Both the position numbers and the translations under genes were made by a program. From the NCBI GenBank assembly GCA_903873975.1, contig CAIQQN010000271.1, positions 1 through 38,270 of the forward strand: a stretch of 38,270 bases of DNA, read 5' to 3'. This stretch comes from an uncultured Anaerolineales bacterium (GTDB lineage: Bacteria; Chloroflexota; Anaerolineae; Anaerolineales; Villigracilaceae). Under the pieces are notes generated by a model that was not told the DNA's origin, ran no database searches, and saw only the letters and a list, made by a program, of their open reading frames with translations. Each line of letters starts with the position of its first letter. The stretch's first letter is position 1. This document shows, in pieces, positions 16,530 through 24,986 of the stretch.

Positions 16530-19500
16530 TTACACCTCGCCAGCCAGCAGAGCCATAAAGGCATTCACAACCTTTGGGTCAAAATACTTTCCGGATTGCT
16601 CGCGGATATATTCCAGCGCGTCCTCACGTGTCCACGCCAGGCGGTAGGGGCGGTTGGAGGTCAGAGCGTCATACACATCCACGATGGCGAAAATGCGTGC
16701 CACCTTCGGGATGTCCTCGCCTTTCAGCCCGCGCGGGTAACCGCTGCCGTCCCATTTTTCATGATGGCACCAGGGGATGTGTAGCGCCGGGCGCAGATAG
16801 GTTATCGGGGATAGCAAATTATAGGCATATTGCGGGTGCTGCCGCATCACCTTCCACTCATGTTCATCCAGCGGACCAGCCTTGAGCAGGATGCTATCAG
16901 GAATGGCAATCTTGCCGATGTCGTGCAAAAGGGCACCACGCCGGGCATGTTCCATTTCAACTTCTTCCATGCCCATAGCCTGGATCAGGCGCAGGGTCAG
17001 ATCGGTGACGCGCAGGGTATGGCCCTCGGTTTCTTCATCACGCAACTCCAGGGCTTGGGACCAACCCTGAAGGGTGGCATCATAGGCCAGGGTTAGTTCA
17101 AGGTTGGAATGCTGCAGGTTCTCAAAGAGGTGTCCATTATCAATGGCAATCGCGGTCTGTCCGGCCAGCATTTCAAAGAAGGTGATCCATTCCTGGTCGA
17201 CCGCCATGGGAGTGCGCTGGAAAATTTCGAGCACACCTTGTAATTGTCCCTTGGCAACCAGGGGGATGGCATGGTAGGAAACAAAATTCTCTCCTTCCAG
17301 GTATTGGAGCGGCAGCGAGGCGAACCCGGAAACGGGATGTTCCATCACCTGTTCCACCGCACCGGCCTGGTGGAGGTCGGTAATGTTGATTGCGCGGCGC
17401 TGCAGCGCCAACTGACCGGCTAATCCTTCTCCCAGCCGCAGTTTCATCCCCTCGATGGCATGGACATGGAATCCGCGCCCGGCAGCGTATTCGAGCATCC
17501 TGGTAAGCGGGTTGAACAAAAGCACAGCCGCAGCATCCGCCTTTAATTCCGTGATGATGTGTTCCAGCACAATGCTCAGGGTGACGTGCGTATCCACGCT
17601 GGCGCTGATAGCAGCGTCGATCGCATGCAAGGCAGAGAGACGATGCACGCGCTGCTGGGTCTCTGTAAAAAGACGCACATTTTCAATGGCGACAGAAACC
17701 GAGGATGCAAAGGTAACCAGCAGGCGCAAGTCAGATTCAGTGAAAGCCGCTTTTCGTGAAGCATTATCGAGGGAAATGACGCCGATCACCTTCCCTTTGA
17801 CGATCAAGGGAGCGGAAATCCCACTCTGCACTGCATCGATCTCTTCAATCGCGCCATTTTCGGGGACCTCATAGGCGGCATGGGCGTCATCAATTTTAAT
17901 GGGTATTCGTTCGCGGGCAACGCGGGCAGCATATCCTTTTTGATCCGGGAGAAGGGATAAGCCAATAATACGTGGATCGGAACAACCAAACATGGCGTGC
18001 AGGCGGAGTACACCGTCTGGTTCTGCCAGGAGGATCGTGCCTTTTTCGGCTGAGGGGATTGCATTTCTTGCGCCCGCCAGTATATTCTCAAGAAGAGGCT
18101 GCAGGTCAATGGCACTCGTGAGTGAGATGCTCACCTGTGACAGGCTTTCAAGTTCGGCCAGGCGGTGGCGGAGTTCTTCGAACAGCCGGGCATTTTCGAA
18201 GGCAACGGCCGCTTCGGAGGCCAGGGTCTCCATGAAGATCTGGTCTTCAACAGTGTAAACATCCGCATCGTGGCTCTGGGCGGATATCACGCCGATGATT
18301 TTATCCCGCGCGAGCAGGGGTACCGAAAGGACCGCCCGGGTTGGTTCCGCTTCACCAACCATGATGGGTTTCGCCCCCTTGGTTTTCTGTACATCCTTTA
18401 CTCGCAGCGGCTTTTTACTTTTTATGACGCTCCCAGTAATGCCAGCCTCCACAGGCAGCCTCGTGTTGGGATGGCGGATGCCGCGGTCATACAAGTAGGG
18501 AGCCTCCACCTCCAGGCCATCTTCGGTCAGGAGAGAAACGGTAAAGGCTTCAGCCGGCATGACTTGCCGGGCCGCATGGTGGAGAGCGATGCAAAGTGCT
18601 TCGATTTCCTGGCCGGCGCGAACAATTTCCAGGCTGCCTTGATGCAGGGCGGCTTTGCGCGTCGAAGCGCTCACGGCTTCCTGGTAAAGGCGGGCATTCT
18701 CGAAGGCAACGGCTGCCTGTGCCGCCAGCGTCTGCAGCAGACGCTCATCTTCTTTGCTGAAACGGTTTGACTGCCGGCTTTCCACTACAATGGCGCCAAT
18801 GGCCCGCTCCCCGATCATCAAGGGGACATAGAGACCGGAGTGGATGTCCGGGAAGGCCGAAAAGTAACGCTTATCCGCCTGCACATCACCACTGCGGACC
18901 GTCCTGCCATGTTTGATGACCCAACCGCTCAACCCCTGGGAGGGAGAAGTGAACATCCTGTTCAAACGGTCAATTTCAACCTGGGTCTGGGCGGTATCCA
19001 AGCCAGGTTCACTGAGAGCCAGCAACTCCATGCGTCTGGTTTCGGGATGGTACAGGCGGATGGCGGCATGGTGCCAATCCAGGTTTTTCGACAGGGTTTC
19101 AATCATCTTCTGGGCTATTTTTCTTGGTTCCAATAAGACGCTGATGCTCAGACCATTCTCAAAGAGCACTTCCAGGTCAGTCACCCGGCGGCGGATCTCC
19201 TCTTCAGCCTGCTTGCGGCCAGTGATGTCCTCCAAAGTGCCTTCGTAATAGAGAATCTGCCCAAGATGATCGCGCATGGCCTGTACATTTTCAGAAATCC
19301 AGAGCGTGCCGCCATCTTGCTGATAGACCTCCGATTCGAAATTAACGATCTTTCCCTGTTCGCTCAACTGCGTCATGAACTCTGCACGCCGTTCCGGCTT
19401 TACATAAAATTTGCGGTTAAGGTCGATCACGCTGGCGATCAATTCTTCGGGCGAGGCATAGCCCAACATGCGCGCCAGGGCCGGATTGGCTATGGAGAAT

Positions 19501-22500
19501 CTCCCCGCCAGGGTGGACTGGAAAATACCCTCCATTGAATTCTCAAAGATATTGTGATATTTCGCTTCAGCTAGCCGTAACGCCTCTTCCCTCAGCTTGC
19601 GCTCGGTGATGTCGTGCATGTTAATGACCAGACTGTGGACGGTGGATTCAGCGAGCAGGTTGGTGCCCGTGGCTTCGATCCATCGCCAGGAACCATCCTT
19701 ATGCCGGCGTCGGAAAGCTAGGCGACGGATCTCGCCTGGATGCTGGACTAGCTCATTGAGCATCTGGGCAAGGGAGCCCCTGTCTTCTGCATGGATATAC
19801 TCAAACCCGCTCTTGCCGAGGCGTTGACCGCTGGCCCGGCCCATCATCCTGGCATAAGCCGGGCTCTCATACAGGATCATGCCGCGCGGGTCAACCAGGA
19901 CAACGGCATCCGTATTGTTCTCGGTCAGGAGGCGGTAGTATTTTTCACTATCCTGGAGCGCTTCCCGGGCGTTCTTGCGCTCGCTGATATCGCGACCCGA
20001 ACCCAGGATGGCAATTGGCTGCCCCTGCTCGTCATGGATGAGGGTGAAGGTATTTTCGCTCCAAAACTTCGTCCCGTCTTTTTTGTTGAACTCCAGTTCA
20101 ATGCTCCGGGAGATGAACCGGTCGGGATGGGCGAGGTTTTCGGGCGCGAGGGTTTCGGCAAACAGTTGTAGAGCGCGCTGGAGCGAATCGGGGGACATTT
20201 GCTGGTCGAGCGGGATCGTGTTGATCTCGTCAAGTGTAAAGCCGCGCAGACGCGTAACCGATGGGCTGATATAGGTGGTGCGCAGACTCAAATCCATCAG
20301 CCAGACCGTGTCGCTTATGTTCTCGGCCAACATGCGGTAACGCTCTTCGCTTTGGTGTAGTACCTCGCCGGCATGCTTGCGATCCTCCTCAACTCCCATT
20401 GCTGAGGCGATTATTCCCAACATTCGCTGATCATCATCGCTTGGGATAAAATCATTTTGAAATACAACGCAAAGCGAGCCTACGTTTGATTTCTCGAATT
20501 TAACTGGCTTACCGATATATGTTTGCAGATGGTATTGTTTAACGTTAGGATCGGTGAATGCATAGGGCGAATCTTGCAAGTTCCTGATAATAACGATCTC
20601 GTCTTTATTGGATTTGATAACATCGGCGCAGATGTGTCCCTCGGAAGGGCCAATGGTTCTGTAATCCGGAGGAGTATTCCACGTTCCGAGAGAACACAGC
20701 ATATCTCCCTGGAGTTGATTGTAAAGTGCACAAGTGGCGCCGAACATCTCTCCAGTGAATGCAACCAGCAGGTTGATATTGACAATCGGATCTGAGCCGA
20801 AGCTGAGGAAACATTCGTTGAGTTTCGTAAGCCGTTCCTCCGCCTGCTTGCGCTCGGCGATGTCGGTGAAGACACCCTGGTCATAAAGCGGTTTTCCCGA
20901 GGCATCACAAATGGTAACAGCTTCATCCCGCACCCACACAATATGGCCATCACGTGCCACCAAGCGGTAATCAGATCTAAACGGTTCACCGGTTGCGAGA
21001 TGATGCTTGTTCTCTGCCAATACACGCAGGCGATCGTCAGGATGCAATATTTTTAGCCACAAATCAGGGTCGGCCACCCATTCCTCGGGTGCATAGCCGG
21101 TCAGGTCTTTGATCTGCGGGCCGATGAAGAGGGTTGAGGCTATCTCATCCAGAGCGTCCCGATAGATGACGCCGGGAATTCGTTCCACCAGCGCCTGATA
21201 GGATTGCTGGCTCTCTTTCAATGCCTCTTCCGCCAGCGTGCGCACGGTGATGTCGCGGAACGACCAGACCCTGCCTCTAACTTTTGTCCCCTGCATTAAA
21301 GCATATGACAGCCGCTCAAATACTCTCCCATCCTTGAAATAGAGTGTATCGAAACTTTTCTTCTTCGACTTGTATAATTCCTGAACCTGTTCGAGGAAAC
21401 TTTGCGGGTCGTTCAGTTGATCAAGGACATGCTGAAGAAGGACAGAGTCGTCCTGGCTGGCTATTACCGCCGGCGGGATCCGCCACATTTCCGCAAAACG
21501 TTGATTGGCATAAAGCACCTCGTTTTTACTGCCGACAGCCAGAATTCCATCAGCGGTGGATTGCAAAACCGCCTGTAAATTTGATTCGCTCTTCCGTAAT
21601 GCCTCCTCGGCCTGCTTGCGCTCGGTGATCTCCTGTTGAGCCTGTTCAAAAAGGCGCGCATTATCAATGGCAGCGGCGGTATGGCCGGCCAGCATCTCAA
21701 GCAGTTCCTGATCCCCGGGGGTGTAAGCCTCTGGATGGTAACTCTGCGCGGAGATGATGCCGATGGTCTTTCCTTTGATCTGCAACGGTACGGCCACGAC
21801 CGAAGCGGTGACCGGCCCGCTGCCATACGGCTCGAACTTGATCCCGCTCTTTTTAATCTGCCCCGGGTTGTTCAAGAGCACCGACCGGCCGGAACGAACC
21901 ATATGGCCCCCCAGCCCATGGTCCGCCTTATAAGGATTCGGCGCAACTCTTTTGTTGTTTTCTATGATATAGTTTCCCGCCATCTCATCCCGAATTTCAT
22001 CGTATAAACTGATCACGAAATCTTCACAGGGCATGACTTGTTGCACGGCGCGATGGACTGCCGCGAAAATCTGCTCTGTATCCAGGCTGGCGCCAATCTG
22101 CTCCCCGGCGCGATATACGATCGACCAGCGTTCAACCATGCGGCGGTTCTCTTCTTCCGCTTGCCTGCGCTCGGTGATATCGCGCACAACTGCAGTCACT
22201 TCTTCTGCACCACTGGCAATCATGCGGCCTTCATAATCCCGCACGCCCTGACCTGGAATGGGTAATTGATAATCAAAGATCTGTAATTCACCGGTCTCCA
22301 ATGCAGTACGGATCTTTTCTTCAATCGAACTGGTGAATTCGGGTGGGAGAATATCCCGGCTGCGTTTGCCTACAAAGGTTGGTCCGGATTGGATATAAAG
22401 ATCCCTACGGTCAGCCTTATAGTCCAGGAAAACACCCTGGCTATCCATACGGAACATCAGGTCTGGAATGGCCTGAAGCATCGCCTTTGTACGGGATTCA

Positions 22501-23282
22501 CTCTCGCGCAGGGTTTCTTCCGCCTGCTGGCGCTCGGTGACGTCGCGCGCATTGATGACAATGCCTTTTATTGCCGGATGGTCGAGCAGATTGCTGCCCG
22601 TGCCCTCCAGAGTACACCAGGTCCCGTTCTTATGGCGTAAGCGTATTTGCATGGGTACAGCCGAATGGTCGGAAGTCTGGATCCGCTGGCGGAAAGCCTC
22701 CATGAAAGCGGGGATGTCATCAGGATGGATGTAATCCTGGAGGCCGGCGCCCCCAATGACCTCTTCGATCGAATAGCCCAGGATACTTTGGATGGATGGG
22801 CTGATATAGCGGATGGTAGCATCAGGGTTCAGGATGCAGATAATGTCTGAAGAATTTTCGATCATGGAACGGAAACGGGATTCGCTTTCCTGCAAGGCCT
22901 GTCCCGCCGCCCGCTTTTCCGCGGCCCGCTGGATGGAGAGAACGAGCTGGTCCATATCGCAAGGTTTCTGGAAGTACGTGTATGCCCCGACATTGATGGC
23001 CTCAATGGCCGAATTCTGGGTGGCGTAGCCGGTGAGCAGGATGCACTCGGTATCCGGTGAATGTGCCTTAATGAGCCGCAGCACTTCCAGCCCGGGCATA
23101 TCCTGCAACTTGAGGTCGATCAGAGCCACGTCAATGTCTTCTTTACCCATGCGGGCGAGCGCAGTCCGACCTGTTGCAGCGGGAACGGATTCGATCCCCT
23201 TCACCTTCAGGATGTCGGTCAGACTCGCCCGCAGGTTGGGGTCATCGTCCACGAGCAGAACTCTAATTGTCTTACGATCCAT
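16530..23282 (-). CDS. Giant REC-(PAS/GAF)n-HD-GYP response regulator, putative c-di-GMP phosphodiesterase
   Basis: 2250 aa: N-terminal REC (VLLVDDDPNLRASL, DVALIDLKLQDMPG), about 7 PAS and 6 GAF segments by reading, C-terminal HDIGKIAIPDSILLK...HHEKWDGSGYPRGLKGEDIP (HD-GYP). Confidence 0.95.
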   Translation of the reverse strand: MDRKTIRVLLVDDDPNLRASLTDILKVKGIESVPAATGRTALARMGKEDIDVALIDLKLQDMPGLEVLRLIKAHSPDTECILLTGYATQNSAIEAINVGAYTYFQKPCDMDQLVLSIQRAAEKRAAGQALQESESRFRSMIENSSDIICILNPDATIRYISPSIQSILGYSIEEVIGGAGLQDYIHPDDIPAFMEAFRQRIQTSDHSAVPMQIRLRHKNGTWCTLEGTGSNLLDHPAIKGIVINARDVTERQQAEETLRESESRTKAMLQAIPDLMFRMDSQGVFLDYKADRRDLYIQSGPTFVGKRSRDILPPEFTSSIEEKIRTALETGELQIFDYQLPIPGQGVRDYEGRMIASGAEEVTAVVRDITERRQAEEENRRMVERWSIVYRAGEQIGASLDTEQIFAAVHRAVQQVMPCEDFVISLYDEIRDEMAGNYIIENNKRVAPNPYKADHGLGGHMVRSGRSVLLNNPGQIKKSGIKFEPYGSGPVTASVVAVPLQIKGKTIGIISAQSYHPEAYTPGDQELLEMLAGHTAAAIDNARLFEQAQQEITERKQAEEALRKSESNLQAVLQSTADGILAVGSKNEVLYANQRFAEMWRIPPAVIASQDDSVLLQHVLDQLNDPQSFLEQVQELYKSKKKSFDTLYFKDGRVFERLSYALMQGTKVRGRVWSFRDITVRTLAEEALKESQQSYQALVERIPGVIYRDALDEIASTLFIGPQIKDLTGYAPEEWVADPDLWLKILHPDDRLRVLAENKHHLATGEPFRSDYRLVARDGHIVWVRDEAVTICDASGKPLYDQGVFTDIAERKQAEERLTKLNECFLSFGSDPIVNINLLVAFTGEMFGATCALYNQLQGDMLCSLGTWNTPPDYRTIGPSEGHICADVIKSNKDEIVIIRNLQDSPYAFTDPNVKQYHLQTYIGKPVKFEKSNVGSLCVVFQNDFIPSDDDQRMLGIIASAMGVEEDRKHAGEVLHQSEERYRMLAENISDTVWLMDLSLRTTYISPSVTRLRGFTLDEINTIPLDQQMSPDSLQRALQLFAETLAPENLAHPDRFISRSIELEFNKKDGTKFWSENTFTLIHDEQGQPIAILGSGRDISERKNAREALQDSEKYYRLLTENNTDAVVLVDPRGMILYESPAYARMMGRASGQRLGKSGFEYIHAEDRGSLAQMLNELVQHPGEIRRLAFRRRHKDGSWRWIEATGTNLLAESTVHSLVINMHDITERKLREEALRLAEAKYHNIFENSMEGIFQSTLAGRFSIANPALARMLGYASPEELIASVIDLNRKFYVKPERRAEFMTQLSEQGKIVNFESEVYQQDGGTLWISENVQAMRDHLGQILYYEGTLEDITGRKQAEEEIRRRVTDLEVLFENGLSISVLLEPRKIAQKMIETLSKNLDWHHAAIRLYHPETRRMELLALSEPGLDTAQTQVEIDRLNRMFTSPSQGLSGWVIKHGRTVRSGDVQADKRYFSAFPDIHSGLYVPLMIGERAIGAIVVESRQSNRFSKEDERLLQTLAAQAAVAFENARLYQEAVSASTRKAALHQGSLEIVRAGQEIEALCIALHHAARQVMPAEAFTVSLLTEDGLEVEAPYLYDRGIRHPNTRLPVEAGITGSVIKSKKPLRVKDVQKTKGAKPIMVGEAEPTRAVLSVPLLARDKIIGVISAQSHDADVYTVEDQIFMETLASEAAVAFENARLFEELRHRLAELESLSQVSISLTSAIDLQPLLENILAGARNAIPSAEKGTILLAEPDGVLRLHAMFGCSDPRIIGLSLLPDQKGYAARVARERIPIKIDDAHAAYEVPENGAIEEIDAVQSGISAPLIVKGKVIGVISLDNASRKAAFTESDLRLLVTFASSVSVAIENVRLFTETQQRVHRLSALHAIDAAISASVDTHVTLSIVLEHIITELKADAAAVLLFNPLTRMLEYAAGRGFHVHAIEGMKLRLGEGLAGQLALQRRAINITDLHQAGAVEQVMEHPVSGFASLPLQYLEGENFVSYHAIPLVAKGQLQGVLEIFQRTPMAVDQEWITFFEMLAGQTAIAIDNGHLFENLQHSNLELTLAYDATLQGWSQALELRDEETEGHTLRVTDLTLRLIQAMGMEEVEMEHARRGALLHDIGKIAIPDSILLKAGPLDEHEWKVMRQHPQYAYNLLSPITYLRPALHIPWCHHEKWDGSGYPRGLKGEDIPKVARIFAIVDVYDALTSNRPYRLAWTREDALEYIREQSGKYFDPKVVNAFMALLAGEV

Positions 23283-23631
23283 CTCAACTTCTCCTAGAGG
23301 AGGAACCGCTCCCCCATTTTACTCAAACCAACCGATAGGGAATTCATGAAAAGGCGGACACCAACGCCTCGAAAAAAGATGTGAGGGATTCCGACAAGTT
23401 ACATTATATACCCTGGACCTTATGCATGGATTAGAAGAGGGGTCAGGGGAAGAGCAGGAGGCAGAAGGCGGGAGGCGGGCATTGTAGATTGATAATTTGA
23501 GATCCCCAAAGGGGACGCTGTTGAAGATCGAAGAATTAAAAAACATTTACCACAAAGAGCAAGAAGGAAAAGAACGTTGAATGTCAAGCGTTGAACGTCA
23601 AAGAGGGTGTACAGGCATCGGCACACAAAGT

Positions 23632-23771
23632 ATTCGTTTGTTTTCGGGAAAAAAGAGGAACAAACGAATACCTCCCGGTTCCCGCGTTCTCTTCGGGGCC
23701 TTCTTCATTATAAACTCCATTGGTAGGCATGAGGTTCTGACCACAATCGATTTTAAGCAAAACAAACGAAT
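23632..23771. repeat. Tripartite structured element A: 11-bp hairpin arms (23632-23642/23659-23669) plus a third arm (23761-23771)
   Basis: attcgtttgtt-ttcgggaaaaaagagg-aacaaacgaat ... aacaaacgaat. Confidence 0.85.
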
Positions 23772-23871
23772 CCCCTCCGGAAGGCACCCCTCGGGGACGA
23801 TGTACCCTTTGGGGAGGAGAGTAGAGAGGGGAGAACAGAGAGTTGAGAGCCGCCTCGACCAGGCCTCGGTT

Positions 23872-24011
23872 AGTTGTTTGTTTTCGGGAAAAAAGAGGAA
23901 CAAACAACTGTGCCCTGCGAGGGGATTCTCCAGTGAGAGGTCCTTCATTACAAAGTTACCTTGTGAGCGTGAAAATTCGACAAGAATTGTTTTTAAGCAA
24001 ATCAAACAACT
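23872..24011. repeat. Tripartite structured element B: arms 23872-23882/23899-23909 plus a third arm (24001-24011)
   Basis: agttgtttgtt-ttcgggaaaaaagagg-aacaaacaact ... atcaaacaact; exactly 240 bp from element A, ungapped. Confidence 0.85.
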
Positions 24012-24091
24012 CAAACAATGTGCTCTATCGACGACTTGTCCCACGGGGATCCCCTGGCGGGGACGATGTGCTTCGCAATGTCGCCAAACCG

Positions 24092-24189: not shown

Positions 24190-24222
24190 GTCCCCCCATT
24201 TCAAGTTCAGAAATGGGGGGAC
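24190..24222. other. Strong hairpin gtccccccattt / aaatggggggac
   Basis: 12-bp perfect inverted repeat with a 9-nt spacer. Confidence 0.75.
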
Positions 24223-24399
24223 GTGATTGCGGGGATGATATCCCGGAAGAACACCAGGACGATATACCCTACCCACGTGTATGATCAATTGTTAACGAAC
24301 CGTGAAACGGTGTACCACAGTGAAGTATGAAGAACTATTTTTGTAGCAAGATTCCAAAGAAAAAGCGGCAAGGAAGACTTATGAGCGCCACAAACTCAT

Positions 24400-24429: not shown

Positions 24430-24559
24430 GCTGCCAGCGCACATCCCTGCCACGAAGTGATTCTAAAACATATGTTCTAATTCGTCAAGGGTAACTGCTT
24501 ACACAAGGTCTCCAATGGTTTAACCAACCTGGTTCAACTGTCATTGCGATGGGATTGCT

Positions 24560-24595
24560 TCCCGGAAGAGCACCGGGACAAAGTCGCAATGACAC
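24560..24595 (-). repeat. Dispersed intergenic repeat GTGTCATTGCGACnnnnTCCCGGnGCTCTTCCGGGA, copy 2 (inverted relative to 7847-7882)
   Basis: Reads tcccggaagagcaccggga-caaa-gtcgcaatgacac on the + strand. Confidence 0.7.
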
Positions 24596-24599
24596 CATG

Positions 24600-24986
24600 T
24601 TACGGAGCCTCTTTGATAATAAGCCTCTTGTAGGCTGAAAACAGGGAGAGAAGGAACTCCATATCCAGCGGCTTGTTTAAAACTGTTTTAATCCCTTCTG
24701 TGATCCCTTGCTGGATGATGTCATCGGCCGCATAGGCGGTCATTAAAACCGTGGTCAGGTTTGGGTGGGTTTTCCTGGCCTGGCGGTAGAGGGCGACTCC
24801 GTTCATATCCGGCATCCTGACATCCGTCAAGAGGATATCGACCCGTTCTTTTCGCAGGATCTCCAGGGCCTCTGCGCCGGAAAAGGCGGCGTGGACTTCA
24901 AAGCCTTCGACATCCATGATTTCCGCCAGGGTCTTAGCCATGGACAGATTATCGTCAACAACAAGAATGGATAAAATTCTACTCAT
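24600..24986 (-). CDS. Stand-alone REC-domain response regulator
   Basis: SILVVDDNLSMAKTLAEI, DILLTDVRMPDMNGVALY, VLNKPLDMEFLL; 4-bp overlap with the upstream kinase gene. Confidence 0.9.
   Translation of the reverse strand: MSRILSILVVDDNLSMAKTLAEIMDVEGFEVHAAFSGAEALEILRKERVDILLTDVRMPDMNGVALYRQARKTHPNLTTVLMTAYAADDIIQQGITEGIKTVLNKPLDMEFLLSLFSAYKRLIIKEAP

Follow-up and report, generated by a model that had tools for sequence, protein, structure and literature searches.

Paired shared-stem hairpins in a probable non-autonomous DNA repeat dispersed within a genus of Villigracilaceae

Among described systems, REPINs, which are inverted REP doublets (Bertels and Rainey) with two alternative folds, a 'long hairpin' and a 'clover' (PMC3116915), are the closest analogue of the element reported here and the one that it works most like, by resemblance rather than established membership. 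The GTAG/CGTC-tagged REP superfamilies are single stem-loops of 20-40 bp with a tag, and their GTAG repeats occur in several phyla, Chloroflexi among them (PMC3733652). The ends of IS200/IS605 elements carry subterminal hairpins with guide tetranucleotides (PMC6006769), and the pneumococcal BOX, RUP and SPRITE repeats are over-represented between convergent genes (PMC3049150).

The window, by which we mean the whole analysed stretch of 38,270 nucleotides, contains two copies (A and B) of an element of about 145 nt, and when the window DNA was searched against the genome 29 matches were obtained, the copies then being aligned. Read on the minus strand, the aligned copies run from hairpin 1 (arms L and LH) through a conserved core, TTWAYAATGAAGAAGC, to hairpin 2 (arms I and R), with a copy-specific stem sequence common to all four arms and thus to both hairpins. 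The core reads TTWAYAATGAAGAAGCYCTCGAAGAGAA in the alignment (minus strand, between the two hairpins), often takes the form ATGAAGAAG..., and no sequence outside the arms was conserved in all of the aligned copies. The original prediction had described, for each of the two copies, a hairpin and a third arm 102 bp away; both third arms were confirmed by a sequence check, the predicted 5' arm being R, the 3' arm I and the third arm L, which lies at the opposite end of the element. A fourth arm, LH, pairs locally with L and had been missed, as had the minus-strand reading of the family. Of the two blocks that the prediction took to be shared, cttcatta belongs to the conserved core (minus strand: TAATGAAG), while ttttaagcaa is the loop of the further hairpin that the third arm makes with its neighbour, L with LH.

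Copy A occupies positions 23630-23771 of the minus strand (covariance-model match 23622-23781, E 3e-31, and alignment), with arm L (aacaaacgaat) at its outer end at 23761-23771, arm LH, an imperfect partner in this copy, at 23744-23754, the core TTTATAATGAAGAAGGCCCCGAAGAGAA placed by alignment at 23687-23714, and arms I (23659-23671) and R (23630-23642, the other outer end) pairing perfectly over 13 bp. Copy B, also on the minus strand, lies at 23870-24013 (covariance-model match 23862-24021, E 1e-25), with L at 24001-24011 (atcaaacaact, one mismatch), LH at 23984-23994, the core at 23926-23954 (alignment), I at 23899-23909 and R at 23872-23882. The cores of A and B are 48% identical, placing the copies in different subfamilies, and each is 85-90% identical in its core to copies elsewhere, those nearest to B being on contigs C18, C255 and C259 (85-90%). 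The start-to-start spacing from third arm to hairpin arm is 102 in both, which is not independent evidence because A and B are homologous copies. Minimum free energies of whole copies were not exceptional against shuffles (z of 0.16 for A and -0.64 for B, plus strand). The gene downstream in the orientation of the element (16530-23282, minus strand) encodes a response regulator with PAS/GAF and HD domains, and its start codon lies about 350 bp away from copy A. The product is very large, at 2250 amino acids, and has about five matches to PAS and six to GAF, with an HD domain at its C-terminus. Upstream, a response regulator gene lies on the same strand (24600-24986).

Hairpin 2 differs in loop length between copies, so a folded strand fits better than a fixed double-stranded dyad, and some copies (for example C315a and C168) have broken arms. 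A coding function for the core was rejected, as the ATG is missing in copies C109 and C87 and an early stop interrupts C104 and G005C157, and an integron attC site was rejected by inspection, RYYYAAC/GTTRRRY boxes not being seen. At one locus (L018, contig C14 of the same genome) the 3' half of an element is joined in frame to a plausible upstream start codon that has a ribosome-binding site (MASEGKPHENGKKPPKR...); this may be a new ORF made out of the repeat, or a spurious one.

A covariance-model search of the 3.56-Mb genome found 39 copies, and the same search of congeners found the element in 6 of 11 when the own genome is included, the other five holding 16, 6, 5, 3 and 2 copies, in draft MAGs whose contig ends cut off some copies. 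The model found no element in five further congeners, nor in 63 genomes of the family that lie beyond the genus; one copy was present in a Chloroflexi MAG from Lake Pavin, and searches of plasmid, phage and viral contig collections found no element. All 30 occurrences of the stem motif GTATTCGTTTGTT in the 3.56-Mb genome coincide with a mapped copy, full or partial, against 0 occurrences of its reversed control, showing that the third arm is not a product of chance. The nearest core relative was in the same genome for 32/34 own-genome copies and for 12/14 copies of the congener G005, and the G005 copy before hal was 85% identical to another G005 copy against 52% to the orthologous copy, both of which indicate within-genome spread. 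Unrelated flanks surround copies whose cores are 85-95% identical. Two copies that share an island usually come from different subfamilies; the islands L028 (C18) and L029 (C9) have an identical subfamily order, a then b, which suggests duplication of composite segments as well as of single elements.

A test proposed with the original prediction was whether the third arm changes in step with the arms of the hairpin from copy to copy, and this was borne out in 52 copies over the five outer stem positions, where L and I agreed at 0.85 (shuffled 0.54; core-matched 0.64) and pairing was 0.75 for L:R (0.53; 0.59), 0.75 for I:R (0.55; 0.60) and 0.76 for L:LH (0.51; 0.66). As copies are not independent, shuffles overstate significance, and the core-matched control, in which the partner arm comes from another copy whose core is similar, is the fairer one. 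Over 15 alignment columns L:R was 88% paired, compared with 39-55% in slid controls, and in the alignment I:R was 89% and L:LH 72% paired. Sister pairs discordant in L favoured the match within the copy in 12 of 16 cases, with 4 ties and none against. The strongest match is between L and I, direct repeats that are unable to pair with each other; such matches are produced by two palindromes with one shared stem, as in REPINs. The L-I excess is limited to the stem and ends at the stem edge, position -5.

The likeness to REPINs extends to two shared-stem palindromes, inverted-repeat ends, compensatory changes and alternative folds, in non-coding, multi-copy, intergenic and clustered repeats, and the inverted pair of palindromic units with complementary outer ends by which a REPIN is recognised is present. 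The element differs in being longer (about 145 bp), in having its spacer core as the most conserved part, in its strong orientation to the next gene, in its dozens of copies, and in lacking a GTAG tag and a linked RAYT gene. Of 51 feet per arm, GTAG stood at 0 for L, 2 for I and 2 for R, and CGTC at 1 for L and at none for I or R; the likeness to the tagged REP superfamilies (PMC3733652) is one of palindromic repeats, the element here being untagged rather than a single tagged stem-loop. No cognate RAYT flanked by the repeat was found, and no copy lay within about 1.5 kb of the PF01797 genes examined; PF01797 proteins are present in 11/11 congeners, including those without the element, and on this evidence a RAYT link was rejected. 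Proteins of about 530 amino acids like that at G000:C255:9695-10051 carry a Y1_Tnp (PF01797) domain within a long protein conserved in nearly all congeners, and look like host gene products rather than transposases.

As in classical MITEs, terminal inverted repeats are present in the form of the outer arms L and R; no parental insertion sequence sharing these ends was found when the GTATTCGTTTGTT stem class was searched in the own genome. Hairpins at both ends recall IS200/IS605 ends and their MITE derivatives (PMC6006769), as may the want of a target duplication obvious by eye, but no transposase sharing the ends was found, no tetranucleotide for guiding or cleavage is conserved next to the hairpins (nothing is conserved beyond the arms, and the L-I excess stops with the stem), and orientation follows the local genes instead of the replication strand. 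With BOX, RUP and SPRITE (PMC3049150) the element shares a short, modular, structured and intergenic character, distribution over the chromosome and neighbours of no functional class, whereas its tandem, divergent and convergent region classes match the background and its orientation is coupled to the downstream gene.

It is rather likely that A and B belong to a dispersed DNA repeat, non-autonomous and about 145 bp long, which consists of two shared-stem hairpins and a conserved core and has multiplied within one genus. Against this reading stand the failure to find a transposase with matching ends, the missing GTAG or CGTC tag, the lack by eye of a consistent target duplication, the orientation tied to the adjacent gene and the broken arms of some copies. 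Such an element has most likely moved or been copied as single-stranded DNA. Its hairpins would be the substrate of a putative trans-acting single-strand DNA enzyme obliged to recognise both, and this double recognition would keep the stems alike within each copy, perhaps with a contribution from template switching between the inverted arms. Through the shared stems the far arm L can also pair with R, and the element can then close into one long fold instead of two separate hairpins, as described for REPINs (PMC3116915).

One doubtful alternative is that the element is an oriented cis-acting module (a mobile promoter, enhancer or insulator) which is kept only when it points at a gene. Orientation was tested on 42 islands, chosen for carrying the element and with gene calls made by a simple codon score, where the downstream gene was co-directional with the element in 33 of 38 cases. 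Information comes only from islands whose two neighbouring genes run in the same direction, and 18 of these 19 share that direction (two-sided binomial about 8e-5), which simple neutral insertion does not predict. All multi-copy islands (8/8) were of one orientation, and 12 of 13 copies in divergent regions were nearer to the gene at which they point. Targeting to a replication strand was rejected as an explanation, since no long-range strand bias of genes was seen in these contigs and the coupling of orientation to genes fades within a few genes. Part of the family also has a core that looks like a -10 box (TATAAT). Against a cis-acting function, the core often reads TAACAAT instead, a conserved -35 or extended promoter of the sigma-70 type was not seen, and the background-like island classes include some islands between convergent genes, with nothing to drive. 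Furthermore, other repeats of the islands share the polarity, with GCGAAGCAC on the strand of the element in 28/28 cases and the palindrome CCGGTGCTCTTCCGGG in 9/9, so that the whole island is polar and may itself be the cause.

It is likewise unlikely, to a similar degree, that the arms match only because replication template switching and gene conversion keep making inverted arms alike, with their pairing not under selection. Template switching yields multi-base compensatory changes in hairpins (PMC8794818), changes of class involve all four arms at once, and the match of the direct-repeat pair L-I is no poorer than that of the true hairpin pairs, all as such homogenisation would have it. 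However, its tracts would be expected to pass the stem ends, yet the excess ends at position -5, and the conservation of core and loops over the genus suggests that the element is under selection.

A still more tentative reading, for which we see only a small chance, is that the element is one module of unrecognised polar repeat islands placed before genes, in which several unrelated palindromic repeats stand in fixed orientation to transcription and the shared-stem hairpins would be a recognition or switching part that co-evolves copy by copy. The island in the window has further repeats at 23792-23803, 24058-24069, 24230-24260 and 24551-24579 (CGGGGACGATGT; GGGATGATATCCCGGAAGAACACC and relatives). 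A perfect 13-bp hairpin, GTCCCCCCATTTC/GAAATGGGGGGAC, lies at 24190-24222, with close copies in several congeners, including genomes without the element, and is a separate genus-wide repeat.

The original prediction had raised a mutually exclusive RNA switch. In such a switch R, within the leader of the downstream gene, would pair with either L or I, the choice controlling expression. Part of this stands, in that two exclusive folds are sterically possible (a long L:R helix or two hairpins); a switch linked to a gene does not, and we regard it as very unlikely. L:R and I:R are both complementary and covarying, the copies point at the downstream gene, G-U compatibility of stem mismatches is commoner on the element strand than on the opposite one, and the predicted preference is for L:R in copy A and I:R in copy B. 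Both folds were, however, predicted to be populated above 10% in only 2 of 52 copies as element-strand RNA in an ensemble calculation (8 of 52 on the other strand), and there was no Rfam match for the window region or for six other loci. The downstream genes, with names assigned by inspection of protein sequences, form no coherent set of the kind expected for a riboswitch or attenuator, but are unrelated housekeeping genes (uvrB, coaE, hal, ftsY, miaB, secA, clpC, atpA). Dispersal in dozens of copies through the genus looks like that of a mobile-type DNA repeat rather than of a gene-specific RNA switch.

Orthologous leaders give the same picture, as most sites in congeners are empty. Upstream of uvrB and hal, congeners with enough upstream DNA lack the element, save G005 at hal, some contigs ending too near the gene to judge. 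Upstream of coaE the element is absent in eight congeners with readable sequence, most of which have the neighbour gene and its terminator followed by the coaE promoter TTTGACA-17-TAAAAT. The own genome (L009 / L184, contig C259) has the same terminator and promoter with about 1.2 kb of stacked repeats between them, and this island holds two element copies, both upstream of the conserved promoter (TTGACA-TAAAAT) and hence, at this locus, not in a leader position. A coaE-leader switch is therefore unlikely, because the island lies upstream of a promoter that is also present in congeners without the element.

The original prediction also raised a target origin of the third arm, as a target-site duplication or a footprint derived from the target, but this is scarcely credible: a direct repeat at a fixed distance would fit, but L, I and R lie inside the element, recently spread copies carry them with exact ends in unrelated flanks, and the arm motif GTATTCGTTTGTT is found nowhere else in the genome. 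By eye, no consistent target duplication was seen at the ends of the element, which lie in repeat-rich islands.

Arm covariation, which is commonly read as proof of RNA function, is also present in a dispersed repeat without gene linkage, and the more than 50 diverged copies are material with which selection on pairing could be separated from homogenisation by template switching. The near-absolute coupling of island polarity to gene direction is unlike that of the REP- and BOX-type repeats compared here, and calls for explanation.
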